Origin: Holophagae bacterium
GTDB lineage: Bacteria; Acidobacteriota; Holophagae; Acanthopleuribacterales; Acanthopleuribacteraceae
Direction: 5' to 3'
DNA length: 64,000 nt
Assembly (NCBI GenBank): GCA_029263455.1
Contig: JAJCXM010000038.1
Span: forward strand, 1-64,000
The notes beneath the pieces are model-generated. The model saw nothing but the letters and a program-made list of their open reading frames with translations. It made no database searches and was not told where the DNA came from. Every line of letters starts with the position of its first letter. Within the stretch, counting starts at the first letter, position 1. The position numbers were made by a program, and so were the translations under genes. Shown here piece by piece: positions 10,590 to 53,157 of the stretch.

Positions 10590-11859
10590 GAATAACCTCC
10601 GCCGTATGGCCGGTCGCGCCTGCAAGATAGCGTAATTCGGATTCGGCGCGTAATTGGTCCGCCTCGGACTGGTGTAGGGTCAAGTTAAATTCCAAAAGCA
10701 TGCGTTCCGCATCGATGACGTCTAAGTAATTGGCGCGATTGGATTGAAATGCGGCTTGCAGGACGGAAAGCGACTCGGTCGCTTTAGGGATAATCGTATC
10801 GCGGTATAAGACGATCTTGCGTTTGGCGTCGTCGCGGTCAAAAATGGCACGAACCCATTGAGAGGTTAGGTTGTTGGTAACGGCCGCCATCTGATATTGC
10901 ACGGCTTCGGCTTCCAGTTGGGCCGCTTGCTGACGTGCTCGAATCGTCTTTCGCCAAATAGGTAGGTTGATGCCTGCTCTCACCATCAGCGCGTCGTCTC
11001 CGCTGCCTGGCATGTTTGGATTAACAGCTCCGCCTGTTCTTATCCAATCAATGCCTACATTGAAATTAGGTTTTCCGTTGAGTCGAGCCAATTCGGTTGC
11101 GGCTACTTTGCTTTCGTAAAGGTGATCCAATTGGTCCAATTCTGGATTACGACTGAAATTTGGCGTGGAGCCGTAACTCAGCGCGGGAATGGAGGCCGGA
11201 AAGGGGATGGCATCATCGGCGGTCTGATCCATGAGTAGATTCATGCGTGTTAGGAGTGGTTCAGCCATTTGATGGAGGGTGATGAGTCTGTCCTGCAGAC
11301 GGTCGCTCTCAACTTCGATTCGAATGAGTGATGCATAAGGCGTTGAGCCAGACTGATAGTTGACGCGTACCACTTCCTGAAGATCGTTAAGTAGCTGCAA
11401 ATGAGACTCTGAACTCGCGATGGACTTACCGATGACGTAATAATCCGCGTAGAGCTTGATGAACGATCGATGCAGTTCACGTCGGGTTTGGTTCAGCGCC
11501 GCTCTGGACCGTTCCACCATGGCTTGATCGCGAACCCTGAGTAAATGTCTCTTGCCTTTCCAGGGTAGTGATTGAGAGAGTGACAGTCTCTGTTCCTGTG
11601 GGCCAACCCGAGTTTCGATGGGTTCCAAGAACAAACCGACAGATAGTTCAGGGTCGGGTAGCGTGTCAGCCACGTCAGCGCGAGTTTGTGCTGCTTCCAG
11701 TTCAAGTTGCATGGACGCTAGTCCCGGATGATGTCTGTCGATGCGTTCCAGGTATTCTTTTAGTATCGGTCGCTGGCCAAAAATAGGCGTGGCCAAAAAA
11801 TAAAGGATGAGACAGGGTCTCGATGTTCTTGAAACGAACATCATTGCAATGCGCAACAT
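10582..11859 (-). CDS. cusC: TolC/CusC-like outer-membrane efflux protein
   Basis: 425 aa, outer-membrane factor of the tripartite pump. A short signal-like N-terminus (RPCLILYFLATPIFGQ) is followed by two repeated long-helix blocks typical of TolC proteins. Recognisable segments are LPDPELSVG and LSLSQSLPWKGKR in the first half and AGINLPIWRKTIRARQQAA in the second. The start at 11859 has GGAG seven bases upstream. The last codons overlap the cusB start by 8 nt (ATGAATAA), indicating translational coupling. The gene is the first efflux component after the small Cys/His protein. Metal specificity comes from context only. Confidence 0.88.
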   Translation of the reverse strand: MLRIAMMFVSRTSRPCLILYFLATPIFGQRPILKEYLERIDRHHPGLASMQLELEAAQTRADVADTLPDPELSVGLFLEPIETRVGPQEQRLSLSQSLPWKGKRHLLRVRDQAMVERSRAALNQTRRELHRSFIKLYADYYVIGKSIASSESHLQLLNDLQEVVRVNYQSGSTPYASLIRIEVESDRLQDRLITLHQMAEPLLTRMNLLMDQTADDAIPFPASIPALSYGSTPNFSRNPELDQLDHLYESKVAATELARLNGKPNFNVGIDWIRTGGAVNPNMPGSGDDALMVRAGINLPIWRKTIRARQQAAQLEAEAVQYQMAAVTNNLTSQWVRAIFDRDDAKRKIVLYRDTIIPKATESLSVLQAAFQSNRANYLDVIDAERMLLEFNLTLHQSEADQLRAESELRYLAGATGHTAEVIHE

Positions 11860-33799: not shown

Positions 33800-33933
33800 A
33801 GTGGGGCTTAACTTCCTAATGTGTGTATTGTACTGCGCCTTTTTCTTCATTGATCAGCTCGTGAAGACTGTGCCGGTTTAGTCTCTCTCTGCTATTCTGC
33901 TCGTTCGTAAATGAGGTCTATAGAGGAGACATG

Positions 33934-36033
33934 ATGAATCGATTACTGGCAATAACCGCGACATTGGTAGGAATACTTATCATTTTTGAAGGTTGTGGTC
34001 AAAGTAACCATGGTTATAAAGGGGTTCCTGTCATTTTTATTACCGTTGACACGTTGAGGTCCGACCATTTACCGGCGTACGGCTATCAGGGCGTTGAAAC
34101 ACCTCATATCGACGCTTTTGCCGAAGAGTCAGTGCTGTTTGAGCATGTTTATGCGCACACGCCGCTAACCTTGCCGTCCCATGCGTCGATGATGACGGGT
34201 ATGTGGCCGCCCTTTCATGGGGTCCGAGACAATTTTGGTTTCAAAGTGGACGAAGCCAAAATAACGCTCGCTGAGCACTTGAAAGCGGCAGGCTATCGAA
34301 CCGGTGCCGTGGTTTCCTCCATGGTGCTTAGACAGTCAACTGGCATGGAACAGGGCTTCGATTATTATGACGATCAAATCAAACGCAGTAGTCGAACTGG
34401 CATTGTGAATTTTGCAGAACGTTTAGGAGAAGACAGCCTTGAGTTAGCGGAGAATTGGATAAACGGTCAACAAGATGCATCTTTTATGATGTGGCTACAT
34501 TTATATGATCCTCACGCGCCCTATACGGCACCGCCTCCGTACGATCAGGTAACTTTGGACTACGATGGTGAAATTGCCTACGTTGATGCTTTGCTTGGTC
34601 GCCTTTTTGAGACCTTAAAGAGTAAGGACTTCTACGATCAGGCCATCATCGTTCTGACATCGGACCACGGCGAAGGTTTAGGGGAGCATGGCGAAGAGCA
34701 ACACGGCTTACTTGTGTACCGAGAATCATTACAGGTGCCTTTGTTGATTAAATTGCCGGCGGGAAAACGAGCTGGTACCAGGCTCAAACAAGCGGCTGGA
34801 TTGGCGGACGTTGCGCCCACTCTGTGCGCGTTGATGGGATTGCAGGCCATCGGTGATGGGGTTGATCTTTTTGCTCAGAACTCGGACAAGCGCATGATCT
34901 ATTCTGAATCATTAAATGCAAAGATCAACTTTGGCTGGTTCCAGCAGCAGTCGGTCATCAGGAATAATCAGCACTTCATACGCGGCGATGGCGACAAACT
35001 ATTCGATATGCATGTTGATCCCAAGGAAACATCTGATTTGCTGCCAGCTGAACCTGTTCCAAGCCAATTCGTGGATCTACTTAGCGAAATAGGACAGGGC
35101 GAACTTCAGCAGGCAGAAATAAGCGAAGAGGACGCAGCTCTTTTACAGTCTTTGGGCTATGTTGGTGGCTTTGCAACTGATGAATCGGCTCAGGATCTGT
35201 CGGAGACTGATTTTCTCAAGGTGTTCAACCTCGTAGGCGAATGCAATATGCGTTTGAACCAAGGCGAGTATGCCACCGTAGAGAAACTGCTGTCGCCGAT
35301 TGTAAAAAGATTTCCAGCCATGATAGATGCTCGTCTTGGACTTGGGTCTGCCTTATTTAATCAAGGCAAATACCAGGATGCGGAAGCCTTGCATTTGGAG
35401 TCATTGGCCATGTCACCCACAAACTTGACCGCAATGGTTGCGCTTATTGAAACGAAACTGGCCTTGAAGAAGCGAGCAGAGGCAGAACCGCTAGTAAGAA
35501 AAGCGGTTGGCAGTGCACCGTTGCTGGGCGCACGTCAGCTACTTCCGGTCCTGAACCAATATGATCTATTTCCCTTGGCGGCAGAGATTGCTGGAGACAG
35601 CCTACAAGTTCAATCTGATTATGCCTTTGCCGAAGTGGTGTTAGCGCGATCCGCCATGTTCCAGTCCGATTTTGGGACTGCGGTCACAAATCTGCAAAGA
35701 GCGGAAGAAATGAATTCAAATACGCCAGATCCGTTCGTGGCGGCGGTCATCCAACACACATACGCGGATATAGCCGCGCGACAGGGTCAAACACAGGATG
35801 CGGTTCGTTATTTCTCGGCAGCTCTCGCCCTTGACCCAAACCATCAGCCATCAAGGACGGGATTGAGTTTGTTGTACTTCAGCATAGATGAGCCGCAATT
35901 GGCTCTTTCAAATCTAGACGAATGGTTGCAGCAGTTTCCAACGAACACAAATTTTACAAAAGCAGCGCAACTATGTGAAGTGGTTGGTTTCACTAAAGGA
36001 GCACAGCACTATCGCGACCAAGCCAATCGTTAA
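33934..36033 (+). CDS. Lipoprotein of the sulfatase/alkaline phosphatase superfamily with C-terminal TPRs
   Basis: 699 aa from ATG 33934 (GGAG five bases upstream; ATG 33931 is too close). Lipobox FEGC gives a lipidated Cys21. The sulfatase-like core has VIFITVDTLRSDH (metal Asp39), TPLTLPSHASMMTG and LTSDHGEGLGEHGEE. Formylglycine sulfatases have C/S-x-P-x-R at the second motif. Here it is T79-L-P-S-H83, so the nucleophile would be Thr and no FGly can form. Phosphodiesterase, phosphotransferase or non-sulfatase hydrolase activity is more likely. Residues ~430-690 are TPR repeats (LGLGSALFNQGKYQDAEALHLE; AVRYFSAALALDPNHQ). It diverges from the TPR-FG-GAP fusion. Confidence 0.88.
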   Translation: MNRLLAITATLVGILIIFEGCGQSNHGYKGVPVIFITVDTLRSDHLPAYGYQGVETPHIDAFAEESVLFEHVYAHTPLTLPSHASMMTGMWPPFHGVRDNFGFKVDEAKITLAEHLKAAGYRTGAVVSSMVLRQSTGMEQGFDYYDDQIKRSSRTGIVNFAERLGEDSLELAENWINGQQDASFMMWLHLYDPHAPYTAPPPYDQVTLDYDGEIAYVDALLGRLFETLKSKDFYDQAIIVLTSDHGEGLGEHGEEQHGLLVYRESLQVPLLIKLPAGKRAGTRLKQAAGLADVAPTLCALMGLQAIGDGVDLFAQNSDKRMIYSESLNAKINFGWFQQQSVIRNNQHFIRGDGDKLFDMHVDPKETSDLLPAEPVPSQFVDLLSEIGQGELQQAEISEEDAALLQSLGYVGGFATDESAQDLSETDFLKVFNLVGECNMRLNQGEYATVEKLLSPIVKRFPAMIDARLGLGSALFNQGKYQDAEALHLESLAMSPTNLTAMVALIETKLALKKRAEAEPLVRKAVGSAPLLGARQLLPVLNQYDLFPLAAEIAGDSLQVQSDYAFAEVVLARSAMFQSDFGTAVTNLQRAEEMNSNTPDPFVAAVIQHTYADIAARQGQTQDAVRYFSAALALDPNHQPSRTGLSLLYFSIDEPQLALSNLDEWLQQFPTNTNFTKAAQLCEVVGFTKGAQHYRDQANR

Positions 36034-36394: not shown

Positions 36395-39300
36395 ATGAGA
36401 CCTAATCGAAGTATCTGGGCTGGCTTGCTCGCGTTCCTTATTTTGGGAGCGGGATCTCTCGCGTTTGCACAGCAAACGTCCAGCATTCATGGCTCCGTCG
36501 TTGACGGAAACGGCGACGCTTTGCCAGGCGTAGTAATTACAATTGAATCCCCCAACATGCAGGGTTCACGTTCAGCAACAACTACCGCCAACGGCGAGTT
36601 CTTATTCCGGCTTTTGATTCCCGGTGACTATACAGTTACTGGCACCATGCCCGGAATGCAAACAAACAAAACTATCGTAGGTTTGGGCTTAGGCCAAACC
36701 TCAAAACCGCGTTTGACATTACAGCCGGAAGCAACCTCTGAAGAGTTGGTTGTTACCGCAAGTGTTGACCCGGTACTCGACACCACTGACGTGGTGGCTA
36801 ACTTTGACGCCAAATTCGTCGACAGTATCGCTTCCGGACGTAATATCCGCGATCGCGCTTTGTTGGCTCCTGGCACGACTCAAAGTGGTGTAAACGGCAG
36901 TGTATCCATTTCTGGTGCACAAACCTTTGAAAACTCTTACCTGCTTGACGGTGGTAGCGTTAACTTCGACAACGTTCGTGGTAGCGCAAGTTTCATCGTC
37001 ATCCCTGACGCGATTCAAGAAACTAGTATTTCTTCTGCCTCTGTATCTGCAGAGTTCGGTCAGTTCACGGGTGGTTTAGTTAACAGCATCACTAAATCTG
37101 GTGGTAACTCATTCTCAGGTGTATTGCGCTCCGCACTGCGCAACGATGACTGGGTAGGTACAACACCTTTGGAAGATGAGACCAACGTCGCTCGTGCAGA
37201 TCAAATCGTTCGCACCGACTCGGTCACCTTTGGTGGTCCGATCATGAAAGATCGTATCTGGTTCCACCTTAGTGCTTCACGTCTTCGTAGTTCACAGCCC
37301 GGTCAGTTGATCGCTGGTGTGCCTTTAACAGATGCAGAAGCGATGGACCTCGGTTTACCTACTGGCCAAACGGCTCCTGGTGTTCGTGCGGTTGATTCTT
37401 CTCGCGATAACGACAAAATTAACTTTAAATTGACCGGTAAGATTGCTGAAGGTCATGAGTTGGTTGTGTCATATGCAGACGAAACAGACAATTCATTAAA
37501 CGATACATCTCGCGGTCCTTTGGGTATCAATGCTGCTTTAACGAACAATGTTCCTGAAGAAGCGTTGTCCATCAACTATCGCGGTATCATTACTCCAGCC
37601 TTTACGGTTGAACTGTTGTATACCGAAAAGAAAGCAACATTTGAGGGTTCGGGCGCAAGCATCGACTCTGACCTCCGCTTGACCAATACCGTTTTGCGTG
37701 ATCGCAACTTCGGTGGTCGATTCGGATCTGAAGTTCTGGCTTCTCCAACCGATGAAAATCGTGACAACGATTCTATTCAATTGAAGGCTTCTTACTTCTT
37801 GACTACAAACAACATGGGGTCACATGACTTCGTGTTTGGTATTCAAGATCAAACCGATGCTCGTATGGGTAACAATCACCAGTCCGCTTCAGGTTGGGAA
37901 TTCTGGGATGTCTATCCAATTTGGGGTAGTGCTGGCCAATTGGAACCAACTGCCGTTTACGGCGGTGGCGGTCCTAACACATTGCCTACACAGTTGATTT
38001 GGTGGCCTATTGTTAACGAATCTATTGGTAGTGATTTCAACACCAAATCTGCATTCGTTAATGACCGCTGGTCTTTCAACAACAACTTCTCATTCAACTT
38101 AGGTCTTCGTTACGACGAAAACAAAGCTACTGCTGAAGATGGCAAGCCTGTATCTAACTCTGATGCACTTAGCCCTCGCGTCGCCATGGAATATGACTTG
38201 CGCGGCGATGGCAAGCATCGCTTCACAGCGAGCTATGCTGAGTATGTGGCTCGTCTGAACGATGCCGGTCAGCAAGCTTCTACCGCTGGTAGCCCAAGCT
38301 ATGCAGTTTGGTACTACTACGGTCCAACGACAACCAATCTTGCTGATGTATTCGCATGGATTGGCGAAAACAACGGCGGCAACGCCAACTCAACGGTTGA
38401 TCCTTTTGCCAATGACTTTTGGCAAACGGCTCCTTTCACCAACATCAACACATCTCCGGATCCAGCCAACGTCATCACGACCGTTGACCCTGGTTTGGCT
38501 TCACCTAACTCTGAAGAAATCCGCATTGGCTATAGCACGCGCTTCAACAAGGGTTTCTTGAAAGCCGACATCATTCAACGCGACTATGGCGATTTCTATG
38601 CTACTCACTTGTTCCAAGAGAGTGCTGATCCGTCTATCTTTGGTGTGACTCCTGCCGGTACGGATCGTCGTTTGTTGACGAACGATAGTTCTAACTACGA
38701 ACGTACGTACAACGCGGTTCAAATCCAAGGTAACTATAAAGTATCTGATAACTTCAACCTAGTAGGTAACTACACATGGTCGCAGTCGATTGGTAACTTT
38801 ATTGGTGAAACTGAAGGTCAAGCGGCTGTCTCTGGCTCGTCAACCACCTTCTACCCTGAGTACAACGCGTTTGCAGCACGTAACCCGCGCGGCTACCTCG
38901 ATGGTGACCAACGTCATATCGGACGTATCTTCGCGATTTACGATCTCAGCACGCGTTTTGGTGACTTCAACTTCAGCGCAACGGAGCGTTTCGAATCAGG
39001 TGCTGCTTACAGTGCCGCATTCACCGTAAACTTCCGTAGCGATCCAGCTGCTTGGGGCATGCCTCTCCGCAGCGATCTGTCTTATGCCAGCCCTGGCACC
39101 ACCACCACCTACTTCGTAGATGGTAAGCGTGGCCAGTATAATGGCGAAGACATGACTCAAACTGACCTGGGCGTTAACTATTCGTTAAAGCTCTGGAAGA
39201 TTGAGTTGTTTGCTGAGTTGAACTTGTTCAACGTCTTCGACGAAGATGCAGCTGTATACCCAAACAACGGTTGGACAAATACGACCGTCCGTTCCACCGG

Positions 39301-39457
39301 CACACCTTTCGATGTGTTTAACGAAACTCCAGTTGAAGGCGTTCACTACACCTTCGATCCAGGTTTCGGAACTCCGCTTGAAGGTAACGGTGTAACTGGT
39401 AACAGTGCTTATCAAAGACCATTCACATACACACTCGATTTAGGTATTCGCTTCTAA
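36395..39457 (+). CDS. Oar-like TonB-dependent outer-membrane receptor
   Basis: 1020 aa with signal peptide (WAGLLAFLILGAGSLAFAQ). Residues ~29-112 form a carboxypeptidase-regulatory-like domain (IHGSVVDGNGDALPGVVITI). The plug follows with LVVTASVDPVLDTTDV and FENSYLLDGGSVNFDNV. The long beta-barrel ends in aromatic YTLDLGIRF, a typical outer-membrane C-terminus. Oar-like receptors are expanded in Acidobacteriota and Myxococcota and take up polymers or export signals; the ligand is unknown. Codon choice (GGT, AAC, GAC, TTC, CGT) is strongly biased compared with its neighbours, implying high expression. It is monocistronic, ending in a strong terminator. Confidence 0.9.
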   Translation: MRPNRSIWAGLLAFLILGAGSLAFAQQTSSIHGSVVDGNGDALPGVVITIESPNMQGSRSATTTANGEFLFRLLIPGDYTVTGTMPGMQTNKTIVGLGLGQTSKPRLTLQPEATSEELVVTASVDPVLDTTDVVANFDAKFVDSIASGRNIRDRALLAPGTTQSGVNGSVSISGAQTFENSYLLDGGSVNFDNVRGSASFIVIPDAIQETSISSASVSAEFGQFTGGLVNSITKSGGNSFSGVLRSALRNDDWVGTTPLEDETNVARADQIVRTDSVTFGGPIMKDRIWFHLSASRLRSSQPGQLIAGVPLTDAEAMDLGLPTGQTAPGVRAVDSSRDNDKINFKLTGKIAEGHELVVSYADETDNSLNDTSRGPLGINAALTNNVPEEALSINYRGIITPAFTVELLYTEKKATFEGSGASIDSDLRLTNTVLRDRNFGGRFGSEVLASPTDENRDNDSIQLKASYFLTTNNMGSHDFVFGIQDQTDARMGNNHQSASGWEFWDVYPIWGSAGQLEPTAVYGGGGPNTLPTQLIWWPIVNESIGSDFNTKSAFVNDRWSFNNNFSFNLGLRYDENKATAEDGKPVSNSDALSPRVAMEYDLRGDGKHRFTASYAEYVARLNDAGQQASTAGSPSYAVWYYYGPTTTNLADVFAWIGENNGGNANSTVDPFANDFWQTAPFTNINTSPDPANVITTVDPGLASPNSEEIRIGYSTRFNKGFLKADIIQRDYGDFYATHLFQESADPSIFGVTPAGTDRRLLTNDSSNYERTYNAVQIQGNYKVSDNFNLVGNYTWSQSIGNFIGETEGQAAVSGSSTTFYPEYNAFAARNPRGYLDGDQRHIGRIFAIYDLSTRFGDFNFSATERFESGAAYSAAFTVNFRSDPAAWGMPLRSDLSYASPGTTTTYFVDGKRGQYNGEDMTQTDLGVNYSLKLWKIELFAELNLFNVFDEDAAVYPNNGWTNTTVRSTGTPFDVFNETPVEGVHYTFDPGFGTPLEGNGVTGNSAYQRPFTYTLDLGIRF

Positions 39458-41616: not shown

Positions 41617-42948
41617 GTGTTCTTAACTTTGTTGCTGTGGTCTAACTTTATTGATGATGTTCCAGACGTGATTGACAGTATGAAGGTTGAGTACGTTCTC
41701 ATTGATGTCTTTGCTCATGATCGTGAGGGTACGCCCGTGTTTGACCTTACTAAGGAAGACTTTGAAGTGAAGGAGGGTAGGAAGAACGTTGATATCGAGC
41801 TCTTTGATACGGTTGATTACCGTTTTGCGCCGTCACCTCAAGAATTTCAAGCGTTACGCCAAGAAGCCGAATCACCTGATGAGGTTCAGGTCCATCCACA
41901 AACTGTTATTCTGGTGCTTGAGTTCGGCACCGCAGAGATCAATCAGATACGTTCAACCATGGACCAATTGACGTCCTATTTTAAGGATCTCAAAGTCAGG
42001 CCCAATGTTAACTTTTATGCCATTAGTTTGGACCACGGTCAAATAACGCTGGATTTCACCAATCAACCACAATCCGTATACCAGAGTTTGGTGTCGTATG
42101 AAGAGAAAGTCATGAAAGATCCTGGCGGCAACCTGATGATGACTCGGGAAACAAAACTAGGTTATCTGGAAACGCAGCTGAATGACTGCCTTAGACACAT
42201 TACAGGGGCACAGGATGCCGACAATGTTTTTCTAGAAGTCGGTGGGTCCAAGGTTAGGGAATACAACGATTGCATCACGGCCGCCCATGATCAGTTCATG
42301 AATCTACAGGCTCACCAGAGCAAAAATGTCTTGAAGGCATTAGAAAGATTATCAGCGGCCTTTGTTCGCGTTCCTGGTATGAAGAGTATGTACTTTATTT
42401 CTCCTGGCTTCACTTTAAAGCCTGGTAGGGAAGCTGCGTCATTATCGCAGAGCTATGCGGATCGTTTTAAATCTGGCACCTTTACGTCGTCCAATCAAAG
42501 CCAGGACACGCCGCCTTCGCCCGCCCGTATAAGCAGTTCGAATCTCACCAATGAATTCCGTCGTATCATCCATGCAGCTACCGCAAATCGTTTGGTTTTT
42601 CACACCTTTCGTTTTGGTGGACAGAACTCATTTGATCGATTAGGCGCCGATCAAGGCGTCGCAGGGTTGAACGAAGACACGGCGTTCCACTTTGACATAT
42701 TTAGCGAAGAAATGAATCAGGGATTGAGCCACCTTTCCAGCACAACGGGTGGCAGCTTTATGCCTGAAGGTTCGTTGGCTGTGCAGATCCAAAAAGTGAT
42801 TGATGGCCACAGTTTTCATTACGTCGTTGGTTACAACAAGCCAAAAGGTAGTAAGCGTTTTCGCAACGTAACCATTAAGTGCAAACGCGATGGCGTTAAC
42901 TTAAGCCACCGCAGTGGCTATTTTCCCGACCCTAAGAAAGCGAAATAG
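41617..42948 (+). CDS. VWFA-related 'Acidobacterial domain' protein
   Basis: 443 aa from GTG 41617, with GAGGG upstream. The N-terminal segment EYVLIDVFAHDREGTPVFDLTKEDFEVKEG is the hallmark of the VWFA-related Acidobacterial family (TIGR03436). VILVLEFGTAEINQIRSTMDQLTSYF is the degenerate VWA core; its MIDAS is not canonical. The C-terminus has HYVVGYNKPKG...FRNVTIKCKRDGVNLSHRSGYF. Function is unknown; it is exported in family members. Its presence is the strongest taxonomic hint in the window. It converges with the ASPIC/TPR operon (40-nt gap). Confidence 0.85.
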   Translation: MFLTLLLWSNFIDDVPDVIDSMKVEYVLIDVFAHDREGTPVFDLTKEDFEVKEGRKNVDIELFDTVDYRFAPSPQEFQALRQEAESPDEVQVHPQTVILVLEFGTAEINQIRSTMDQLTSYFKDLKVRPNVNFYAISLDHGQITLDFTNQPQSVYQSLVSYEEKVMKDPGGNLMMTRETKLGYLETQLNDCLRHITGAQDADNVFLEVGGSKVREYNDCITAAHDQFMNLQAHQSKNVLKALERLSAAFVRVPGMKSMYFISPGFTLKPGREAASLSQSYADRFKSGTFTSSNQSQDTPPSPARISSSNLTNEFRRIIHAATANRLVFHTFRFGGQNSFDRLGADQGVAGLNEDTAFHFDIFSEEMNQGLSHLSSTTGGSFMPEGSLAVQIQKVIDGHSFHYVVGYNKPKGSKRFRNVTIKCKRDGVNLSHRSGYFPDPKKAK

Positions 42949-42988: not shown

Positions 42989-44656
42989 TCAGAGAGTTGC
43001 TTGCTTGATACGAATGTACTTGTTGAAATCGCTTGTTTGCTGAACCTGACGTTTGCCGTCGGGCCAATCAATTTCAATCGTAACGAGTCCTTGGTGGGCT
43101 CCCAGTCCGAACAAGAGGCGCAAGTCAGATTGGCTCATGAAGCTGCCTCCGCTAGTAACTTCACGTGAGCCCAGTAGCTTCTGTTCGATCGACAGCCGCA
43201 CTTTTGCGCCAATCGCAAATCGATTGACTTTGGGACCGACGAGTTCAACACCTAACCAGTTACCATTTACCGTCATCCGATTCTCAAGTAGATTGACTTG
43301 ATCATTGATGTTTGTAATTAAGAGATCTAGGCGCCCATCGTTGTTCCAATCACCAGCAGCCATGGCTCTACTAACCTGCTTCTTGGCGAACGCTGTTCCG
43401 GCCTTGTCGGAGACGTCAATAAAGCTACCGCGGCCATTGTTCTTGAGCAGGCTGTTACTTTGGCCATAGGTCATGTTGGGGTCAATCAGAGTGATATTAT
43501 CCATCACATGGCCATTGGCGACTGCCGCATCCAAATCACCGTCAAGATCATAGTCAAACCATTGCACGCCCCAGCCGACCGGGCGACGCGACAATTCCGC
43601 AATACCTGACTGCAGGGTCGCGTCCACGAATAACAAATCGCCCTGGTTTGAATAGAGCGTATTCGTTTCCATGGCGTAGTGGGTCATGATGATATCAGGC
43701 CAACCATTGTTGTCCACGTCGCCAGCTGAAACGCCCATTCCGGCTTCAGCTTCACCTTCATTGTTAAAACCAATGCCAGCTAACAAGGCTTCATCTTCAA
43801 AAACCCCGTTACCGTCATTGACGTACAGCCGATTCATGGTGCCATCGTTGGCGACAATGACATCCAAATCGTGATCGCCATCTACGTCGCTTAAGATGAC
43901 ACCAAATCCCTTTTCGTCCTTGCCGCGCTTAATACCTCGAAGCGCGCTTTCTTCCTTAAATGAACCGTCGCCTTGATTGATATACAAGTAGTCAGGGAGT
44001 CCGTTGAATGCCGTAGGTCGACAATAACTGATCAGATTCAAAGTTGCATTACTACATTGAGGATTATTTTCGAAACTGAAGTCCACATAGTTGGCCACAT
44101 AGATATCAAGATCGCCATCGCCGTCTAGGTCTCCAAAACTACAGCTGGTACCCCAAAGGTCACCGTCCACGCCAGCCTGATGAGACACATCCTTGAATGT
44201 TCCGTTTCCAAGGTTACGAAAAAGGCGATCGCGTCCGAAGTTAGTGACGAAAAGGTCAAGCCAACCGTCGCCATCATAATCGCCAGTGCAAACGCCCATG
44301 CCGCAGCCCGAATCGCCAAGCCCTGAACGTTGCGTTACATCCACGAAACGCCCATCCCGATTCTCAAACATCTGGTTTGGTACTGCCGTGCTGTCGGATG
44401 AGCCAGGAGTGGGACAGCCATTTAGAAGGTAAAGGTCTAAATCGCCATCGTTGTCAAAGTCAATCCAAGCTGCGCCTGATCCTGTCGTTTCAATGTAATA
44501 GTGTTTGCCCGATCTGAAATCGCGATGTTGAAATTTGATGCCCACCGTCTCGGTAACATCGACGAACCAGTCCTGTCCATCTTGCGCCATCAGCGAAGAA
44601 AGTGACATTATGTTAAGGGCAGCAATAATTGGAAAAAATCGCGACAAAATATTCAT
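42989..44656 (-). CDS. ASPIC/UnbV-FG-GAP exported protein (A2, last gene of the A-B-A-B-A operon)
   Basis: 555 aa with signal peptide (FFPIIAALNIMSLSSLMAQ). FG-GAP/VCBS repeats contain many D-x-D/N-x-D-G-x-x-D loops (IDFDNDGDLDLYLL, GDYDGDGWLDLFVT, GDLDGDGDLDIYVA). The family Cys pair is C-x10-C in NPQCSNATLNLISYCRP. The ASPIC/UnbV C-terminus has GSFMSQSDLRLLFGLGAHQG and IDWPDGKRQVQ. It is the most diverged of the three A proteins. Its ATG overlaps the upstream TPR stop (ATGA). UnbV/CRTAC1-type proteins have no established enzymatic activity; a scaffold or binding role is likely. Confidence 0.85.
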   Translation of the reverse strand: MNILSRFFPIIAALNIMSLSSLMAQDGQDWFVDVTETVGIKFQHRDFRSGKHYYIETTGSGAAWIDFDNDGDLDLYLLNGCPTPGSSDSTAVPNQMFENRDGRFVDVTQRSGLGDSGCGMGVCTGDYDGDGWLDLFVTNFGRDRLFRNLGNGTFKDVSHQAGVDGDLWGTSCSFGDLDGDGDLDIYVANYVDFSFENNPQCSNATLNLISYCRPTAFNGLPDYLYINQGDGSFKEESALRGIKRGKDEKGFGVILSDVDGDHDLDVIVANDGTMNRLYVNDGNGVFEDEALLAGIGFNNEGEAEAGMGVSAGDVDNNGWPDIIMTHYAMETNTLYSNQGDLLFVDATLQSGIAELSRRPVGWGVQWFDYDLDGDLDAAVANGHVMDNITLIDPNMTYGQSNSLLKNNGRGSFIDVSDKAGTAFAKKQVSRAMAAGDWNNDGRLDLLITNINDQVNLLENRMTVNGNWLGVELVGPKVNRFAIGAKVRLSIEQKLLGSREVTSGGSFMSQSDLRLLFGLGAHQGLVTIEIDWPDGKRQVQQTSDFNKYIRIKQATL

Positions 44657-46605
44657 GGTTTCAGAAATCTTTGACTGTCGTATTCATCGCAGCAGCTTTG
44701 TTTTTGTTGGAACATGTGGATGAGTATGGCTAGTTCAGCACGATCTTTATCCGTCATTTGGCTGCCGTCTTCTTCAATGTCTTTGAGGATTCTTACCGCC
44801 TCGTCGAAGCGATTGCTTTCGGCCAATGCCATAGCACGAATTTCATGCCAATCTTGGTTCTGAGCGGGTGTTAGAGCTAAAGCACGGGCGCCGTCGCGAT
44901 TGGTCTTGACGGGTGAGGAGGCAAGCATGCGCGCCATTAATTGTTGAATACGGCGGTTGTTTGGCCAATTGGAGAGTGCAGACTCCAGCTTTAGCTGCGC
45001 TGAATCCCAAGATTGCGCCATGATCAAAGCAACAATTTCACCGAGGCTAGCGTCCAAATGATCGGGATTCGACTTTCTTATGTCCGCCATAGCTTGCGCG
45101 GCTTCATCGTACCTCTTGAGCGCACCAATAATGGTGGCCCTTGTGTAGGATAGATCAGGAGTCGGTCCCAGTAAGGCAATGGCTTCATCTAAATGTTGCA
45201 ACGCGCATGGGAAATCACCTTGGCTTTGGCACATCTTGGCTAGATTCAGATGGATGCGAGCACGGTCTTCAGGGACAGTTGCCATAGCTACAGCGTCCGA
45301 ATATGACTGTTTTGCCTGCTCGTGATTGCCAAGTAATTCGTTGGCGATGGCCAGGCGCTCGTGGTACTGGAATACGTCAGGATTGAGGGTGATGGCTAGT
45401 TTCAGGTCGATTACGGCCAACTTCAGGTTGTCTTCGTGTCCACTGTTCATGAGAGCCGCAGCCCTCGAAAAGCGAATACGCGCATCATTGGGTTCAAGAT
45501 CTGCCAATTCATTGAGCAAGTCGATGGCCTCAAGCGAGTCTCCTGCGGCGATTATGCTGTTCAAGTAACGTAAACAGGGTTCGATGAAAAGATTGCCTTT
45601 ATCACAGGCCAGTTGATAGCAGGTTCTTGATTGCTGGGGTTGCTGCCGCTTTTCATAGACGATGCCCGCAGCGTAGTAGATGCGCGCCGCAACGATCGCA
45701 TTCATTTGTGCGGTTTTTAGTCCCTGTTGCGCTTGTTGCACCAAGTACTCTGCGATGCCATCTCGAGAAGTAAGTTGCGACACAATGAACGCTTCAAACT
45801 TCGGCGCAGAAAATTGCTTTTCATCGGCCGCCAACGCCAGCGCGACATGAACAGCCATGGTTGTGACGGTATCGTTGAGATCCTTCAAATGCGGATCCAG
45901 CAATTCGATTTTCCCTTCGCCGCGAGCCTGCATATGTTGGCGAGCCAAGCTATCGTCGCCCGATTTCCGGTAGGCCAGCGCCAACAGGTAGTGAATTGAA
46001 GTCGCCTTCGGCTGCAGCTCAAGCGCACGTGTGAAGTGTTGAATGGCAGCTGAGGAATCGCCTTTATTGCTAGCGGCTTGGCCTAATCCGAACCAGGTAG
46101 ACGCGTTGTTTGGTTCTAGCTTGGCTGCGCCGTTGAAACTGTCTTGTGCTTCGTCATTGAGGTTCTTGTCTAGCAGTACATTGCCTAGACGTATAAGTGG
46201 CCAAGGGTCTTGCGGCCGTTGAAGGGTTAGACCACGGTAACATTCTTGTGCGCGATCTAGTTGGCCCTTCAATTTGTACAAGAAACCAGCGAAATATGGC
46301 CATCTTAGATTGTCTGCGTCCAAGATCAGGGCGTTCTCATACGCCACTAACGCTGCGTCTTCAAGTTCCATCGCATGTAAATTGAGTGCTAACTGTCCGT
46401 AAAACGAACCTAGTTCAATGTCAGATACACGAGCATCTTGTTTCGCTTGTTCAATTTGAGCAAGCATGTTGGTTAGTCCGGCACGAATGGTTTCGTGCAG
46501 TTGCGATAAGTCGCTTTTGGGCACGTCTTTCAACAATGCCCGACTCGTTTGAGCCTGCAGCACCGACGTTAGTAGCCCCAAACCAAGTAGACAGTACTTA
46601 ATCAT
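44653..46605 (-). CDS. Exported TPR protein (B1) with C-terminal QSCC motif
   Basis: 650 aa from ATG 46605, overlapping the upstream A1 stop by 4 nt; a longer in-frame start overlaps A1 by 60 nt and lacks a signal peptide. The signal is MIKYCLLGLGLLTSVLQAQ. TPR units fill ~50-210 (ALVAYENALILDADNLRWPY, DEAQDSFNGAAKLEPNNAST) and again ~330-600. Between them lies a shared non-TPR module beginning RGEGKIELLDPHL and MAVHVALALA. It ends IHMFQQKQSCCDEYDSQ, a cysteine pair 11 residues from the C-terminus, matching B0. It is probably periplasmic and partners the A proteins (inference). Confidence 0.85.
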   Translation of the reverse strand: MIKYCLLGLGLLTSVLQAQTSRALLKDVPKSDLSQLHETIRAGLTNMLAQIEQAKQDARVSDIELGSFYGQLALNLHAMELEDAALVAYENALILDADNLRWPYFAGFLYKLKGQLDRAQECYRGLTLQRPQDPWPLIRLGNVLLDKNLNDEAQDSFNGAAKLEPNNASTWFGLGQAASNKGDSSAAIQHFTRALELQPKATSIHYLLALAYRKSGDDSLARQHMQARGEGKIELLDPHLKDLNDTVTTMAVHVALALAADEKQFSAPKFEAFIVSQLTSRDGIAEYLVQQAQQGLKTAQMNAIVAARIYYAAGIVYEKRQQPQQSRTCYQLACDKGNLFIEPCLRYLNSIIAAGDSLEAIDLLNELADLEPNDARIRFSRAAALMNSGHEDNLKLAVIDLKLAITLNPDVFQYHERLAIANELLGNHEQAKQSYSDAVAMATVPEDRARIHLNLAKMCQSQGDFPCALQHLDEAIALLGPTPDLSYTRATIIGALKRYDEAAQAMADIRKSNPDHLDASLGEIVALIMAQSWDSAQLKLESALSNWPNNRRIQQLMARMLASSPVKTNRDGARALALTPAQNQDWHEIRAMALAESNRFDEAVRILKDIEEDGSQMTDKDRAELAILIHMFQQKQSCCDEYDSQRFLKP

Positions 46606-48323
46606 GGTTCTCGAATACCACTGCCGCGTGTCAGCACATGATATTGATTGGGTTGAAGTTGTGACCAAACTTCGTTCGAACCATCTAAGTAACGTGCTTC
46701 GACGCGGACTTTATTCGTATTCTTTGCTAAACCAAATAAGCAACGTGGATCTTGACTAGACGCGTAACTAGATGTGCGGCGGACGCGGCGCCATAATCGT
46801 TTGCCGCCTTCGTCTCCAATACCAACCAGCGTATCGATCTGATCAAATTTCTTTGAGGTGTCTAGGAGTTTTATGCCAATCCAGTTGTTCTCCTGACCTA
46901 ATTGATTGATGAGCAGACGAACGGGCCCGCTGTTGTTGCTAACTAAAATATCGGCGTCGCCGTCGTTGTCAATATCGCCAAATGCGGCACCTCGACTGAC
47001 TTCCGATAGTTTGAATACCGGCCCAGCCGAGGCGCTTACTTCTTCAAGTTTCCCTTGTCCGAGGTTACGAAACAATTGATTGGGCTGATGGACAGGGTAG
47101 GGGTCTTTCTGGCGTTGAAGCGCCTCGATTGCGTAGACATTGCCATTGGCAATAAAGAGATCCAGATTGCCATCGTTATCGTAATCCGTCCATCCAGTTC
47201 CAAAGCCCGTAGCTGATCTCGTCCTTGGTCCAATGCCAGCCTGCAAAGTCTGATCTTCAAAAAATCGATTGTTTTGATTGTTGTAGAGCGTGTGCGTCTC
47301 GGTTGAGAGGTGGGTCACAAAGAGGTCCAAGTCACCGTCGCCGTCATAGTCTTCGACCTCAATGCCCATGCTGGCTTCGGCCGCTCCTTTTGCGTTAACG
47401 GCACAGCCAAGGAAAAGAGCTTCGTCTTGAAACGTACCGTCACCTTGATTGATCCACATAATATTTGGATCGGCGTCGTTGGCCACGTAAATATCCAAGA
47501 AATGATCTTGATTGAAATCAAAGGCAACAACGCCGAGGCCTGATCCGAACGCGTTGATTTTTGCTCGCGCCGTTACATCTTCGAATCGACCATTCCCCAA
47601 ATTCTTGAGCAGGCGATCTGGCGCGTCGGGATAGACAGACGGCCCGCAATAGCCATCGCTACCGGACTTTGTCGGACACTTACGGTGATTCTTGAAGTCA
47701 AATTGAATGTAGTTACTGACAAATAAATCCAGATGACCATCATTGTTGTAATCAAGAAAAATGGCGGCAACACTCCAGTTTGGGTCGTCGCTGGCCGTCG
47801 CCCGGGTCACATCCTCAAATGTCCCGTCACCCTTGTTTCGCCACAACTGATTGGGCCCGTAGTTGGTGATATATAGATCTAGCCAGCCATCGCTATCGTA
47901 ATCGCCGATTGTGACGCCCATGCCATATCCATATGCGCGGATACCGCTGGATTCCGTGACGTCGGTAAATTTGATTTGTCGGCTGCCGTCTGCAAGGACC
48001 TTCAAGTCGTTGCGATATAGTCGGTCCATTAACGGCACTGGCGATTTCGGTGGAAAAACGGCATCTTCTAACTTTTTGTCTGGACCCAGTAATTGGCCTT
48101 GAACCAAGAACACGTCTAAATCGCCGTCACCGTCAAAATCAAAAAGGGCGCATCCGCTTCCCATGGTTTCCGCAATATACAAGGATCCTGTCATGCCGTT
48201 AAAGTGAACAAAATCGAGCCCGGTAGCTTGAGACTCTTCTAAATAAATGGGTGGTTCTTGAGCAACGGTTGCCAGTGACCAAAGGAAACAGATTGAGGGC
48301 CACACAAGAGCACGCGACTTCAT
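46602..48323 (-). CDS. ASPIC/UnbV-FG-GAP exported protein (A1)
   Basis: 573 aa with signal peptide (LVWPSICFLWSLATVAQ). The opening block GLDFVHFNGMTGSLYIAETM and ALFDFDGDGDLDVFLVQG is nearly the same as in A0, showing recent duplication. FG-GAP loops include GDYDSDGWLDLYIT and EDYDGDGDLDLFVT. The Cys pair is C-x9-C in KCPTKSGSDGYCGP. In the ASPIC/UnbV C-terminus (SYASSQDPRCLFGLA, then VEARYLDGS) the usual WPDG is replaced by YLDG. It overlaps both neighbours by ATGA. Function is unknown; Ca-stabilised propeller-type scaffold on family grounds. Confidence 0.87.
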   Translation of the reverse strand: MKSRALVWPSICFLWSLATVAQEPPIYLEESQATGLDFVHFNGMTGSLYIAETMGSGCALFDFDGDGDLDVFLVQGQLLGPDKKLEDAVFPPKSPVPLMDRLYRNDLKVLADGSRQIKFTDVTESSGIRAYGYGMGVTIGDYDSDGWLDLYITNYGPNQLWRNKGDGTFEDVTRATASDDPNWSVAAIFLDYNNDGHLDLFVSNYIQFDFKNHRKCPTKSGSDGYCGPSVYPDAPDRLLKNLGNGRFEDVTARAKINAFGSGLGVVAFDFNQDHFLDIYVANDADPNIMWINQGDGTFQDEALFLGCAVNAKGAAEASMGIEVEDYDGDGDLDLFVTHLSTETHTLYNNQNNRFFEDQTLQAGIGPRTRSATGFGTGWTDYDNDGNLDLFIANGNVYAIEALQRQKDPYPVHQPNQLFRNLGQGKLEEVSASAGPVFKLSEVSRGAAFGDIDNDGDADILVSNNSGPVRLLINQLGQENNWIGIKLLDTSKKFDQIDTLVGIGDEGGKRLWRRVRRTSSYASSQDPRCLFGLAKNTNKVRVEARYLDGSNEVWSQLQPNQYHVLTRGSGIREP

Positions 48324-50275
48324 GGTAAAAGCACGCTGACATTAGTTTTAGTGCAACAAGATTGCTGAGCCTGATAACGTAAGAGATTGCTATACAGCCA
48401 ACTCACCCGATTTTGGTCACCAACTGCTCGGGCGGATTCTATGAGTTCCGACTGCACTCTTTGTGCCTGTTTGAAATCGTTTCTTTGTGCATAGGCCATA
48501 GCTAATGTCTCGCTGTACGAAGTGTTTGCCATTAAGTTGTCCAGCTTTTGCAGGAGATCTAGGGCCACTTCACCGTCTCGCAGCGAGGGGTCGGGAGCTG
48601 CGACAAGAAGTCTTGCAGCTAGATGAATGAGCTTCATGCTTTGTGGCATCGCAAGCACATCCTTTTCGATGACACTCAAAGCCAGCTCAAATTGTTCGCT
48701 TAAAATCAAAGCTGCATATCGTCCTATTCTAGCCGCTTCGTTTTGAGGTTGATCATCCAAGACCTTCGTGTATTGATTGACAGCCTCGCTGTATTTATCT
48801 TTGAATGCCAATGCTGCAGCTAGATTGATGCGAATATCGGCAGCTTCTGGCTGATGCGCGAGAGCTTGTTCAAACTCATGAATAGCGAACTCCAACTTCT
48901 GCTGATTCAGATAGATACGACCCTTTCCCGCGCGGCATTGTGCCAGAACAGCGGCTTCATCACGTAACGACAACAATTGATCATAGATTTTTAGTGACTC
49001 TTGTGGTCGGGCCTGCTCAGACAACTGAGCCAAAGTGAGAAGCGCGTCAACTTGGTTAGGCTCAAATTGGAGGATACGGTTGAGGTCCTCTATGGCGCGG
49101 TCGACCTGTTTGTCGTCCCTTAAAGCTCGAGATCGGTCAAGTAGAACCGAAATCTGATTGGGTTTGGCTTTCAATAGATTCGTGTAGCAGTCAATTTCTT
49201 CCTGGTAACGCTGGTTGCGTGCATAGATATGGCCTAGTTTTCGCCAGGGTTCGATAAATTGTGGATTGGAAGTGAGGGCGGATTTATAAGAAAGCTCTGC
49301 TTGATGGTCGTCGCCTCGAAACTCCTGAATAACGCCAATCGCGTAGTGGATATGGGCCAATTCGTCTTTGGTAGCGAGTTGCTGACTTGATTTATGTTTA
49401 AGGGCATCACTTAAATAAGTTACGCTGCCTTTCTTGCTAGCGATATTGCTGCGGATGTAGCCTTCGAAATCGCTTAGCGCGACCGAAGCAGAATCTTTTG
49501 CCATGGCTAGGACTACTTGCAGCGACGATACCGTGACGATGCCAGCTAGCTGTCCGACTCTGGGATCTGGAAATACGATCACCCCTTCACCACGTTGGGA
49601 CAAGAATTCGCGCGCCTTTTCTCGGTTTCCGGCGCCGCGATAGGCTAAACCGAGCGGGTAATGGATGGTGGTTGCGTCCGGTTGTAATGAGAGTGCTTTT
49701 TCGAGGTGCGTGACGGCTAAATCAAATTCGCCTAAATCAGACAAAGCACGTCCGAGGCCATACAAGGCGAAAGCGCTAGCGTCATCAATGGCCAGTGCTT
49801 TTTTGAAGTATTCTGCTGCTTCTTGAGGCCGATTCAAATCCAACAGTACGTGGCCGCACCTGACTAGGGCAAAATATTCATTGGGATCTATGGTCAGAGC
49901 TTGGTCAAAATATTTGACAGATTCCTCGAGATTTCCCATCTCCATTAAGTTAAAGCCTAGATAGTAGGCCCAGCGAATGTCATCGGGGGCTAATTTCAAG
50001 GCGTTTGCGTAGGCCGTATTTGCCTCTTCACGATAATTATGAGCGTGCAGGACGAGACCGTACCCGCCATAGGCGTCGGCTTTTTCTTTTTTGGTCTTGG
50101 TAACGTCATTAACTAGGTCGTAAACAGCCTTAAAGGTGTTTTCTATGTTTTCCTTGATGCCACTTTTCAGCTGGCTTGTGTCAGGCATACTCAAAGGTTC
50201 AACTGTTTGAGAAAAAACGAAAGTGGTAGACAACAGCAACGCTAGAACTTTGAGCCCAGGGTTCAGCAGATTCAT
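48320..50275 (-). CDS. Exported TPR protein (B0) with C-terminal QSCC motif
   Basis: 651 aa with signal peptide (GLKVLALLLSTTFVFSQ). TPR units occupy ~65-215 (EEANTAYANALKLAPDDIRW, ESVKYFDQALTIDPNEYF, LAVTHLEKALSLQPDATT) and ~300-560. They are separated by the B-family module RGEGVIVFPDPRVGQLAGIV...SLQVVLAMA. The C-terminus reads LLRYQAQQSCCTKTNVSVLLP, with the Cys pair 10 residues from the end. Its ATG overlaps the A0 stop and its stop overlaps the A1 start. Domain layout and motifs make it a paralogue of B1. Confidence 0.86.
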   Translation of the reverse strand: MNLLNPGLKVLALLLSTTFVFSQTVEPLSMPDTSQLKSGIKENIENTFKAVYDLVNDVTKTKKEKADAYGGYGLVLHAHNYREEANTAYANALKLAPDDIRWAYYLGFNLMEMGNLEESVKYFDQALTIDPNEYFALVRCGHVLLDLNRPQEAAEYFKKALAIDDASAFALYGLGRALSDLGEFDLAVTHLEKALSLQPDATTIHYPLGLAYRGAGNREKAREFLSQRGEGVIVFPDPRVGQLAGIVTVSSLQVVLAMAKDSASVALSDFEGYIRSNIASKKGSVTYLSDALKHKSSQQLATKDELAHIHYAIGVIQEFRGDDHQAELSYKSALTSNPQFIEPWRKLGHIYARNQRYQEEIDCYTNLLKAKPNQISVLLDRSRALRDDKQVDRAIEDLNRILQFEPNQVDALLTLAQLSEQARPQESLKIYDQLLSLRDEAAVLAQCRAGKGRIYLNQQKLEFAIHEFEQALAHQPEAADIRINLAAALAFKDKYSEAVNQYTKVLDDQPQNEAARIGRYAALILSEQFELALSVIEKDVLAMPQSMKLIHLAARLLVAAPDPSLRDGEVALDLLQKLDNLMANTSYSETLAMAYAQRNDFKQAQRVQSELIESARAVGDQNRVSWLYSNLLRYQAQQSCCTKTNVSVLLP

Positions 50276-51999
50276 TCTTTACTCCCTTCCCCTTGTGTTA
50301 GGGAGACATATTGATTGGGTTTTACGTCCTTCCAATGTTCAACCTGGCCATTTGGCCAATGCACTTCGAGGTTACAGCTTTTCGAGTTGGATCCAAGTCC
50401 AAAAAGCAGGCGACCATCGTGGCTGGAAGAATAGGAGCCATCTACCCGAACGCGTCGCCAAATGGGTGGCCGATCGGTTTGTGTCAAACGCACCCTTGTT
50501 TGGGTCACGTCCACGCCTTTAGTGGATTTGCAGTGCACACCCAGCCAGGAATTTTTTTGGCCCACCTGATTCAAGAGCAGGCGTGCTGGCCCACTGTTAT
50601 TGGCGACCAGTACATCGCAGTCGCCGTCATTATCGATATCGCCGATGGCAACGCCGCGGCCTACCTCCGACAGCGAAAAGTAGGCACCGCTATTGAGTTC
50701 TTCAAAAGTACCGTCGCTATTAGCGCGGTAGAGTTGGTCACTTTGGTGAAGCGGAAATGGGTCTTTTAATTTAACTAAATCTGGTTGCATGTTCACGGCA
50801 CCGTTGGCTATGAATAGATCCAGTTGCCCATCATTATCATAGTCAATCCAAGCCGTACCAAAACCCGTTTTGTGCAAGCTGGATGCGCCTAAACCGACGG
50901 TCAAAGTAACATCACGAAAGATTCCCTGTCCTTCGTTGCGAAAGAGCGTATTGGTTTCTCCGTTGAGGTGGGTCATGAAGAGGTCCTGGTCTCCATCTCC
51001 GTCTATATCAGCGGCGTCAACGCCCATGCTGGCTTCGGTTGCGCCATTGAGATTGACCGCACAACCTGCGATGATGCCGTCGTCGATGAATTGGCCGTTA
51101 CCCTGGTTCAACCATAAGAAATTTGGGTCGGCATCGTTTGCGACATAGAAATCTAACAAGCGATCGCCATTGAAGTCTGCGGCAATAACACCAAGACCAG
51201 ACGCAGCAACGCCGTGAATGCCTGCTTTTTGTGATACGTCTTCGAAAACGCCACCGCCCAAGTTGCGGTAGAGGCGGTCTTTCTGGTCTAAATACGAGGA
51301 AGGACCACAGTAATCGACGTAACCTGTGGCTGAGGTGCAAACTTTATGCAGGTCATCACTGAAGTGAACGTAGTTGGCGATATACAAATCCATATTGCCG
51401 TCTTGATCATAATCGGCAAAGCTGGCAGAAACACTCCAGTCAATAGCCGTCAAGTTGCTCTCTTTGGTGATGTCATCAAAGGTGCCGTCACCGTTATTGC
51501 GCCAGAGCTGGTTGGATCCGTAGTTTAAGACCAGGATGTCTAGCCAACCATCGTTGTTGATATCGCAAACAGCCACGCCAATACCGTAGCCAGTGGCCAT
51601 GATTCCACTGGCTTCAGTGACATCCGTAAAGGATAAGCGACGAGAACTGTCAGCACCGACTGTCAGGTCATTGCGAAAGAGACGATCGCGAGTGGGAAGG
51701 GGCTCTTGACTTGGGAAAACCGCATCGGACATAGTCTTGTTGCGTCCAAGCAAGTGTCCTTGAACCAGGTACACATCCAAATCGCCATCGTTGTCGTAAT
51801 CGAATAAGGCGCATCCAGGTCCCATTTCTTCAAGGATGTAGAGATCGCCCACCATGCCGTTGAAATGGTTGAACTTCAGGCCCGAGCTGATGGCTGATTC
51901 CACAAAGATCTCGCCCGCGAATGAATGGCAGCCAAGGGCTGCTAGAACGTGAATCAAAATGATGGGCATGTTTTTCGGGCGACTGCTTGATCGGCGCAA
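50272..51999 (-). CDS. ASPIC/UnbV-FG-GAP exported protein (A0, first gene of the A-B-A-B-A operon)
   Basis: 575 aa from TTG 51999, nine bases after GGGAG. It gives a basic n-region before the signal core (MPIILIHVLAALGCHSFAG). ATG 51969 is the alternative. It has repeated FG-GAP loops (ALFDYDNDGDLDVYLVQG, CDINNDGWLDILVL, ADIDGDGDQDLFMT, GDIDNDGDCDVLVA). The Cys pair is C-x9-C in VCTSATGYVDYCGP. The ASPIC/UnbV C-terminus (YSSSHDGRLLFGLG, VHWPNGQVEHW) is canonical. It is preceded by a strong promoter at 52077-52105 and a leader hairpin. It is the closest paralogue of A1. Confidence 0.87.
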   Translation of the reverse strand: MRRSSSRPKNMPIILIHVLAALGCHSFAGEIFVESAISSGLKFNHFNGMVGDLYILEEMGPGCALFDYDNDGDLDVYLVQGHLLGRNKTMSDAVFPSQEPLPTRDRLFRNDLTVGADSSRRLSFTDVTEASGIMATGYGIGVAVCDINNDGWLDILVLNYGSNQLWRNNGDGTFDDITKESNLTAIDWSVSASFADYDQDGNMDLYIANYVHFSDDLHKVCTSATGYVDYCGPSSYLDQKDRLYRNLGGGVFEDVSQKAGIHGVAASGLGVIAADFNGDRLLDFYVANDADPNFLWLNQGNGQFIDDGIIAGCAVNLNGATEASMGVDAADIDGDGDQDLFMTHLNGETNTLFRNEGQGIFRDVTLTVGLGASSLHKTGFGTAWIDYDNDGQLDLFIANGAVNMQPDLVKLKDPFPLHQSDQLYRANSDGTFEELNSGAYFSLSEVGRGVAIGDIDNDGDCDVLVANNSGPARLLLNQVGQKNSWLGVHCKSTKGVDVTQTRVRLTQTDRPPIWRRVRVDGSYSSSHDGRLLFGLGSNSKSCNLEVHWPNGQVEHWKDVKPNQYVSLTQGEGSKE

Positions 52000-52106: not shown

Positions 52107-52637
52107 TTAGGTCCCAGTATGGTTTACGGGACGTTCATTAGGTGGGTTAGCGCGTAATTCGGCCATGTGCTGCTTGAAAGCTTTCCAGTCCTGCACGATC
52201 ATCTTACCGTCAAGCTGTTCGAATCGAGGTAGTCCGCACATTTGACCGCCGTCAATTTCAAATTGGCCCGCGCTTTGGGACTCAAATTCCAGGCGGAAAT
52301 CTATTTCAGGAACCAGTAGCTGGTTGAGATCTAACCCTGGCACTTTGAGTGTGTAAATGTAATCGCTACTATCCAGCAGGATCACAATTTGGCGGTTAGT
52401 GGGGATGTGGATATCCTGCATACCGTGAAGATCGTCCTGAGTACCGAGCAGTTGGTCTGGACCGGGGTAGGTCACAAACCAGCGGTGTTCATCCCCAAGT
52501 ACTTGTATTTGAAAAGGTTCTGTTTCATTTTGATGGCACGATATGGGGATTGTTAATAACAAATACAAAACCCAGTTTTGCAAAACAAAAGGCCGTGCCA
52601 ACTTCATCATATGCAAGCATAACCCAATCAGACTCAT
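52107..52637 (-). CDS. Cytochrome-oxidase-subunit-II-like cupredoxin protein with degenerate CuA site
   Basis: 176 aa from ATG 52637, 7 nt after the rhodanese stop; ATG 52610 is also possible and 52688 overlaps the rhodanese gene. A hydrophobic stretch (LQNWVLYLLLTIPISC) ends in Cys, suggesting a lipoprotein. The soluble part follows the COX2 fold in order: HRWFVTYPGPD, IHIPTNRQIVILLDSSDYIYTLKVPGL, LLVPEIDFRLEFESQSAGQF, QMCGLPRFEQLDGKMIV. In COX2 the CuA ligands are H (in DVIH), then C, E, C, H, M in CxExCGxxHxxM. Here they read Y, G, Q, C, R, Q, so one of six remains. It therefore probably cannot hold CuA. It may be a structural or assembly relative; function unknown. Confidence 0.7.
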   Translation of the reverse strand: MSLIGLCLHMMKLARPFVLQNWVLYLLLTIPISCHQNETEPFQIQVLGDEHRWFVTYPGPDQLLGTQDDLHGMQDIHIPTNRQIVILLDSSDYIYTLKVPGLDLNQLLVPEIDFRLEFESQSAGQFEIDGGQMCGLPRFEQLDGKMIVQDWKAFKQHMAELRANPPNERPVNHTGT

Positions 52638-52644
52638 AAATGTT

Positions 52645-53157
52645 TTACTCAACGTCCGATGATTGAAGCGGTGAGCGCAGTTCTTCATTCAAGAGGCAGC
52701 CCCATTTTTGATCGTACGGGTGCACTTTTTTGACAGCACCATTTTGATCTAGGAGATGCCTATTCTCGTTTGCCCAGGCAAAAATGGATCCTTCCAAATT
52801 AACCACACTCAAAAACCCTTTTTTGGTTAGCTCTGAGGCAAATTCGGCGGATCGGTAACCAACGGAGCAGTAAACGACGATCGGTTGTTGCTTATCTGCC
52901 GTGCCAGCTTGCCATTCAGACGCCAGAATGGCGTCCGGCAAGTGGCTTACGTTAAATTCGTCGAGCTCACGAACATCGAGAAGAATGGGTTTTTCAGCGC
53001 TATAAGAAAGCCAAGCAGCTAGCTCGGCCGTTGAGATAAAGCTGACTTGCGGAAAACGGGTACGCACTAGCGCCAGCATCTCTGGCCAGCTAATCCAATC
53101 GCATGGATTTTGCCAGGCACTCGAAAAGGTCATAAGCGAAAGTAAAACGATGCTCAT
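52645..53157 (-). CDS. Exported single-domain rhodanese
   Basis: 170 aa with a short signal-like start (MSIVLLSLMTFSSAW). The rhodanese fold shows ILLDVRELDEFNVSHLPDAI and the active-site loop VVYCSVGYRS (catalytic Cys, six-residue loop ending in RS). The extra N-terminal part and the C-terminal tail are uncharacterised. Rhodaneses transfer sulfane sulfur or act as persulfide/thiol carriers; a periplasmic position would fit thiol or sulfur chemistry in the envelope. It is immediately upstream of the COX2-like gene (7-nt gap) and divergent from tRNA-Ser. Confidence 0.85.
   Translation of the reverse strand: MSIVLLSLMTFSSAWQNPCDWISWPEMLALVRTRFPQVSFISTAELAAWLSYSAEKPILLDVRELDEFNVSHLPDAILASEWQAGTADKQQPIVVYCSVGYRSAEFASELTKKGFLSVVNLEGSIFAWANENRHLLDQNGAVKKVHPYDQKWGCLLNEELRSPLQSSDVE

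Follow-up and report, generated by a model that had tools for sequence, protein, structure and literature searches.

Gene organization of the operon

The window, the whole stretch of 64,000 nucleotides analysed here, carries on its minus strand five genes (42989-51999) that alternate between two types in the order A0-B0-A1-B1-A2. This arrangement had been described in a sequence-only reading, and both the open reading frames and Pfam agree with it. FG-GAP_3, FG-GAP and UnbV_ASPIC match the products of A0 (50272-51999), A1 (46602-48323) and A2 (42989-44656), the last gene of the operon; many TPR families match those of B0 (48320-50275), the partner of A0, and B1 (44653-46605). All four junctions consist of 4-base ATGA stop/start overlaps, with the start of B1 set at the coupled ATG at 46605 (the open reading frame as listed begins at a TTG at 46668). 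In each A protein, FG-GAP repeats are followed by a UnbV_ASPIC domain (PF07593) that scores above the cut-off of 23.4 bits (A0, 53.9; A1, 34.6; A2, 59.2), which is the architecture of the UnbV_ASPIC/CRTAC1 family. An NCBIfam search yielded a specific family for neither A nor B. The window's genome alone encodes 16 UnbV/ASPIC proteins. A match to the acidobact_VWFA family and the named relatives recovered with the A profile suggest that the host is one of the Acidobacteriota, and it may belong to Holophagae.

Pairwise alignment supports the proposed paralogy of A0 with A1 (53% identity) and of B0 with B1 (32%), and A2 is more distant (40% identical to A0, 39% to A1). The N-termini of all five proteins, read by eye, resemble signal peptides, as had been claimed; that of A0 is read from the internal ATG MPIILIHVLAALGC and that of B1 from MIKYCLLGLGLLTSVLQAQ. 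Lipobox-like N-termini occur in several relatives of A and B and are absent from B0 and B1, according to a rough scan that was used by eye only since it gave false positives, such as MGSGC within propellers. Both B0 and B1 have a C-terminal QSCC. A conserved CC was considered as a trait of the whole B family and rejected: it is present in only 3 of 46 B proteins, and a Cys anywhere in the last 35 residues in 15 of the 46.

All five genes recur in unchanged order in the sister species G001 (L057, 5257-13919), indicating that the arrangement is not due to chance. There, a cupredoxin gene precedes A0, with a rhodanese gene upstream of it (phmmer 125 bits to the rhodanese of the window). The corresponding genes of the window, both on the minus strand, encode an exported rhodanese with a CxxGxR loop (52645-53157; PF00581) and, overlapping it, a CoxB-like cupredoxin (52107-52688; TIGR02866, 40.6 bits), which is a probable operon gene. 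The start of the operon probably lies two genes further upstream than had been noted, taking in the rhodanese and cupredoxin genes. Four CuA ligand positions were compared in an alignment of the cupredoxin, and in both species of the genus three are lost (His to Tyr, the first Cys to Gly, and the last His to Arg), one Cys being kept. A CuA role as subunit II of cytochrome c oxidase was therefore rejected for this protein, since the ligand set (His, Cys, Cys, His) is incomplete.

Fold of A0

The AlphaFold model of A0 (pLDDT 90.2, pTM 0.90) consists of a seven-bladed propeller followed by the C-terminal ASPIC domain, the fold of CRTAC1. By far the best fold match is mouse CRTAC1, 9etn (Foldseek E 3.7e-32; VIA Z 40.0, rmsd 2.4 over 457 residues), and CRTAC1 is also the sole PDB sequence match for the A profile. 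CRTAC1 differs from A0 in being a secreted protein of animals that has no TPR gene as partner. Below CRTAC1, Foldseek matches, among others, integrins and GlcNAc-binding fungal lectins, a likeness suggesting that A0 may bind a ligand.

Pairing of A and B genes in other genomes

Searching 84,980 species genomes with the A profile gave 80 loci from about ten phyla. Both neighbours could be read for 89 A genes, of which 42 have an adjacent TPR gene on the same strand, compared with 10 of 282 other genes of the same loci (Fisher p 3e-21); open reading frames came from a simple script here, and individual loci could have been misread. In a tree of 125 A proteins, A0 and A1 fall within one clade, A-I; A2, which the sequence-only reading had taken to be diverged, is indeed of a different A type and groups with a gene of its own genome (at C22). 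Outside the window's family, a B-like TPR gene lies directly 3' of A, often with a 4-base overlap, in 13 of the 13 A-I members whose 3' flank is readable in the genome_contigs set (L067, L068, L070-L075, two in L077, L080, L087 and L088). Within the family, B also follows A in L051, L056 and L060, and a B-like gene is divergent in L048.

A survey of 247 Acidobacteriota genomes, which scored only the five top candidates of each genome, gave a same-strand A gene no more than 700 bp upstream for at least 68 of 114 B matches, a lower bound. Runs of A-B-A-B appear among the survey matches scored only in two species of the window's genus. Direct reading of fetched loci revealed A-B-A-B-A in G139 (L148), A-B-X-A-B-A in G122 (L152), A-B-A-B in G225 (L149) and A-B-A in G206 (L165). 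The search for neighbouring A and TPR genes thus found that A and B do co-occur in other genomes, where the alternation recurs as well. Clade A-I and B form an ordered, usually overlapping, conserved gene pair whose members duplicate and diverge jointly.

Co-divergence of A and B

The idea that A and B are matched pairs holds at the level of evolution. Across 46 pairs, the A tree parallels the B tree (mirror-tree r = 0.80), and random re-pairing reaches at most 0.44. To take out the species signal, swaps of partners were confined to genomes with several pairs; the fit fell, and none of the 5000 swaps gave one as good as that observed. A0/A0' and A1/A1' form sister pairs in the tree and B0 and B1 mirror them, consistent with the proposed duplication of an A-B unit. 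The operon is best read as a duplicated two-gene module, an A-I propeller followed by a B TPR protein, with an A of another type at its end. The two A-B units are sisters in the window's genus, whereas those of the G139 and G122 arrays belong to different clades in both trees. This indicates that the alternation probably arose more than once, independently in a distant genus from unrelated units. The mirrored trees show A and B evolving as a unit; neither contact nor the suggested fixed stoichiometry is proven thereby, and co-divergence can arise through linkage alone.

A and B are also found joined in a single chain. A minus-strand gene of the window (31178-33850) encodes a natural fusion of 890 aa with TPR, FG-GAP and ASPIC parts, which was aligned to A and modelled. 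Fusions occur in both orders, with the TPR part first in this protein and in L124 and L081, and last in L101 and L127. The AlphaFold model of the window's fusion (pTM 0.65) contains two domains separated by a disordered linker (254-289) and no docked interface. An A-B interface as read from this protein was accordingly discarded, as the model is of two rigid domains on a disordered linker.

TonB-dependent receptors near A-B genes

An Oar-like TonB-dependent receptor (TBDR) gene (36395-39457, plus strand), assigned with a profile made from this receptor and its relatives, is convergent to the operon and neighbours it in both G000 and G001. In the window it lies 3.5 kb from the operon's 3' end with two genes between, and the spacing is shorter in G001. 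A relative in L149 carries CarboxypepD_reg, Plug and OMP_b-brl_4. This carboxypeptidase-regulatory and OMP_b-brl_4 architecture of the neighbouring receptors we take to be Oar-type, a likening by domain content. In Myxococcus, Oar is a TonB-dependent transporter required for secretion of the protease PopC (PMC6434023); the part of that account considered here gives no role to A or B. Three close paralogues of the window's receptor gene (74-89% identity) are found at other sites in the genome.

In 11 Acidobacteriota genomes, a TBDR gene lies within 8 kb of at least 14 of 32 A clusters, compared with 1.85 expected. With one genome per genus, the count is at least 8 of 23 versus 1.40 expected (P 2.8e-5); both the counts and the densities underlying the expected values are lower bounds. 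The other 18 of the 32 clusters have no TBDR within 8 kb among the matches listed, and the TBDR profile detected none at the Planctomycetota A-B loci L070 and L074. Annotated records contain the orders TBDR-TPR-CRTAC1-CRTAC1 in Granulicella, TBDR-CRTAC1-TPR in Acidisarcina, TBDR-SusD-FG-GAP/ASPIC in Hymenobacter, and sulfatases-CRTAC1-TBDR in Pseudoalteromonas, and other ASPIC genes in annotated plasmid records adjoin TBDRs, glycoside hydrolases and sulfatases. A glycan-utilization locus was nevertheless rejected as the general setting of A-I/B pairs: among 70 neighbouring proteins searched with Pfam, glycan enzymes are not in excess, most are single members of unrelated families, and no enzyme class dominates. 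Three of the 70 are PpiC rotamases.

In Bacteroidota, SusD and surface glycan-binding lipoproteins present or capture ligand for SusC. The loci described here resemble that system in that a TBDR with CarboxypepD_reg and Plug is found near exported helical-repeat and beta-rich proteins, and in the Hymenobacter gene order given above. They differ from it in that the window's TBDR is outside the operon and convergent to it rather than in the same operon, and in that A-I/B pairs lack adjoining glycan enzymes. Membership of B in the SusD family was also rejected: by Pfam, B0 and B1 are plain TPR proteins that match TPR families only, while a control SusD (L170, 4466-6091) matches PF07980.

Possible functions of the A-B pairs

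The sequence-only reading knew of no function for such pairs, and the literature searched, which lacks most subscription papers, likewise holds no description of one; nor was a function of bacterial UnbV/ASPIC proteins found there. That the gene pairs are kept, co-evolve and often lie beside an outer-membrane transporter points to a widespread, undescribed cell-surface machine. We favor, with a probability of about 0.4, the reading that A-B pairs serve TonB-dependent transport as matched surface or periplasmic partners, analogous in function to SusD and accessory lipoproteins without belonging to their family. Every B would bind the A of its own pair, either in the periplasm or on the outer surface of the outer membrane; the superhelix of TPRs would hold the CRTAC1-like propeller, whose fold is common to sugar-binding lectins and integrins. 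The pair might then present or capture a ligand for the transporter, and two A-B pairs plus A2 could make up one device with two matched sites of different specificity and an end piece. The broader proposal, that propeller/TPR pairs in A-B-A-B-A arrays replace SusD and surface-binding proteins for the Oar-like transporters of Acidobacteriota as a widespread undescribed outer-membrane device, is more doubtful. If the transport reading is true, the pairs would be an Acidobacteriota counterpart of the SusCD machinery. With one UnbV/ASPIC clade seen as a co-evolving, TPR-partnered unit that is repeatedly arrayed, often near TBDRs, an orphan domain becomes open to experiment, with questions as to binding partners, place of binding and cargo.

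Several observations fit instead a role as accessory or maturation partners of extracytoplasmic copper or heme redox enzymes, with the TPR protein and propeller holding the enzyme or delivering metal. Besides the cupredoxin and rhodanese in the operon, SCO1/SenC is fused to FG-GAP and ASPIC at three loci (L150, 2696-5197; L154, 7107-9866; L155, 6848-9319). Proteins that combine cytochrome c, a PHM-like dicopper monooxygenase and TPRs (L156, 7197-9287; L154, 1864-3987; L151, 7304-9769) lie within 5 kb of 7 of 25 A-I genes in some Acidobacteriota families, compared with 0.25 expected. Their His ligands (HH..H..HxH) are conserved, most have the DEM-type Met, and relatives occur in 53 of 247 Acidobacteriota genomes. 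Two ASPIC genes of the window's genome (L047, 10289-13111; L052, 9736-11823) directly adjoin genes for large membrane multihaem cytochromes. A CRTAC1-family/ASPIC gene is also located between hydrazine-synthase-like cytochrome genes (PMC12758564), a similar placement between genes for redox enzyme subunits, although no TPR partner is mentioned and the subunits in question are cytochromes, which are absent from the window's operon. The cupredoxin, however, has lost its CuA ligands, Pfam finds no haem or copper domain in A or B, and in the window's genus no such monooxygenase gene was found beside A, the copy in G001 being 68 kb from the nearest ASPIC gene. We regard a redox role as unlikely.

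A similarly improbable reading makes B a periplasmic chaperone or export partner dedicated to its own A, whose propeller it would fold and deliver. Such a role would agree with the matched pairs and tight gene coupling, with the PpiC rotamases that adjoin several pairs, and with a fusion model that lacks a docked interface. On the other hand, a chaperone that acts transiently is less in keeping with fusions in both orders than a lasting partner would be, B is at least as long as A, and several B N-termini resemble lipoprotein signals in the rough scan, judged by eye. Least likely is that linkage accounts for everything, with common exported paralogues duplicated in tandem and co-inherited as neighbours and no complex formed. 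The A and B families are large and repetitive, and co-duplication alone would mirror the trees; yet gene order, overlaps and fusions are kept in about ten phyla, and unrelated units have been built into an A-B-A-B-A array.

Other genes of the window

Three minus-strand genes at 4325-11859 resemble by eye a heavy-metal RND efflux trio of the CusA/CusB/CusC type. The gene at 33931-36033 encodes a sulfatase-fold protein fused to TPRs, with a Thr at the Cys/Ser site of sulfatases (TLPSHASMMTG), so it is perhaps a phosphohydrolase or transferase; in G001 (L059), a related Sulfatase+TPR gene adjoins a B-like gene. Next to A2 lies a gene for a VWA protein of the acidobact_VWFA family (41617-42948; TIGR03436), and at L162 a VWA protein is encoded between a TBDR and an A-B pair.
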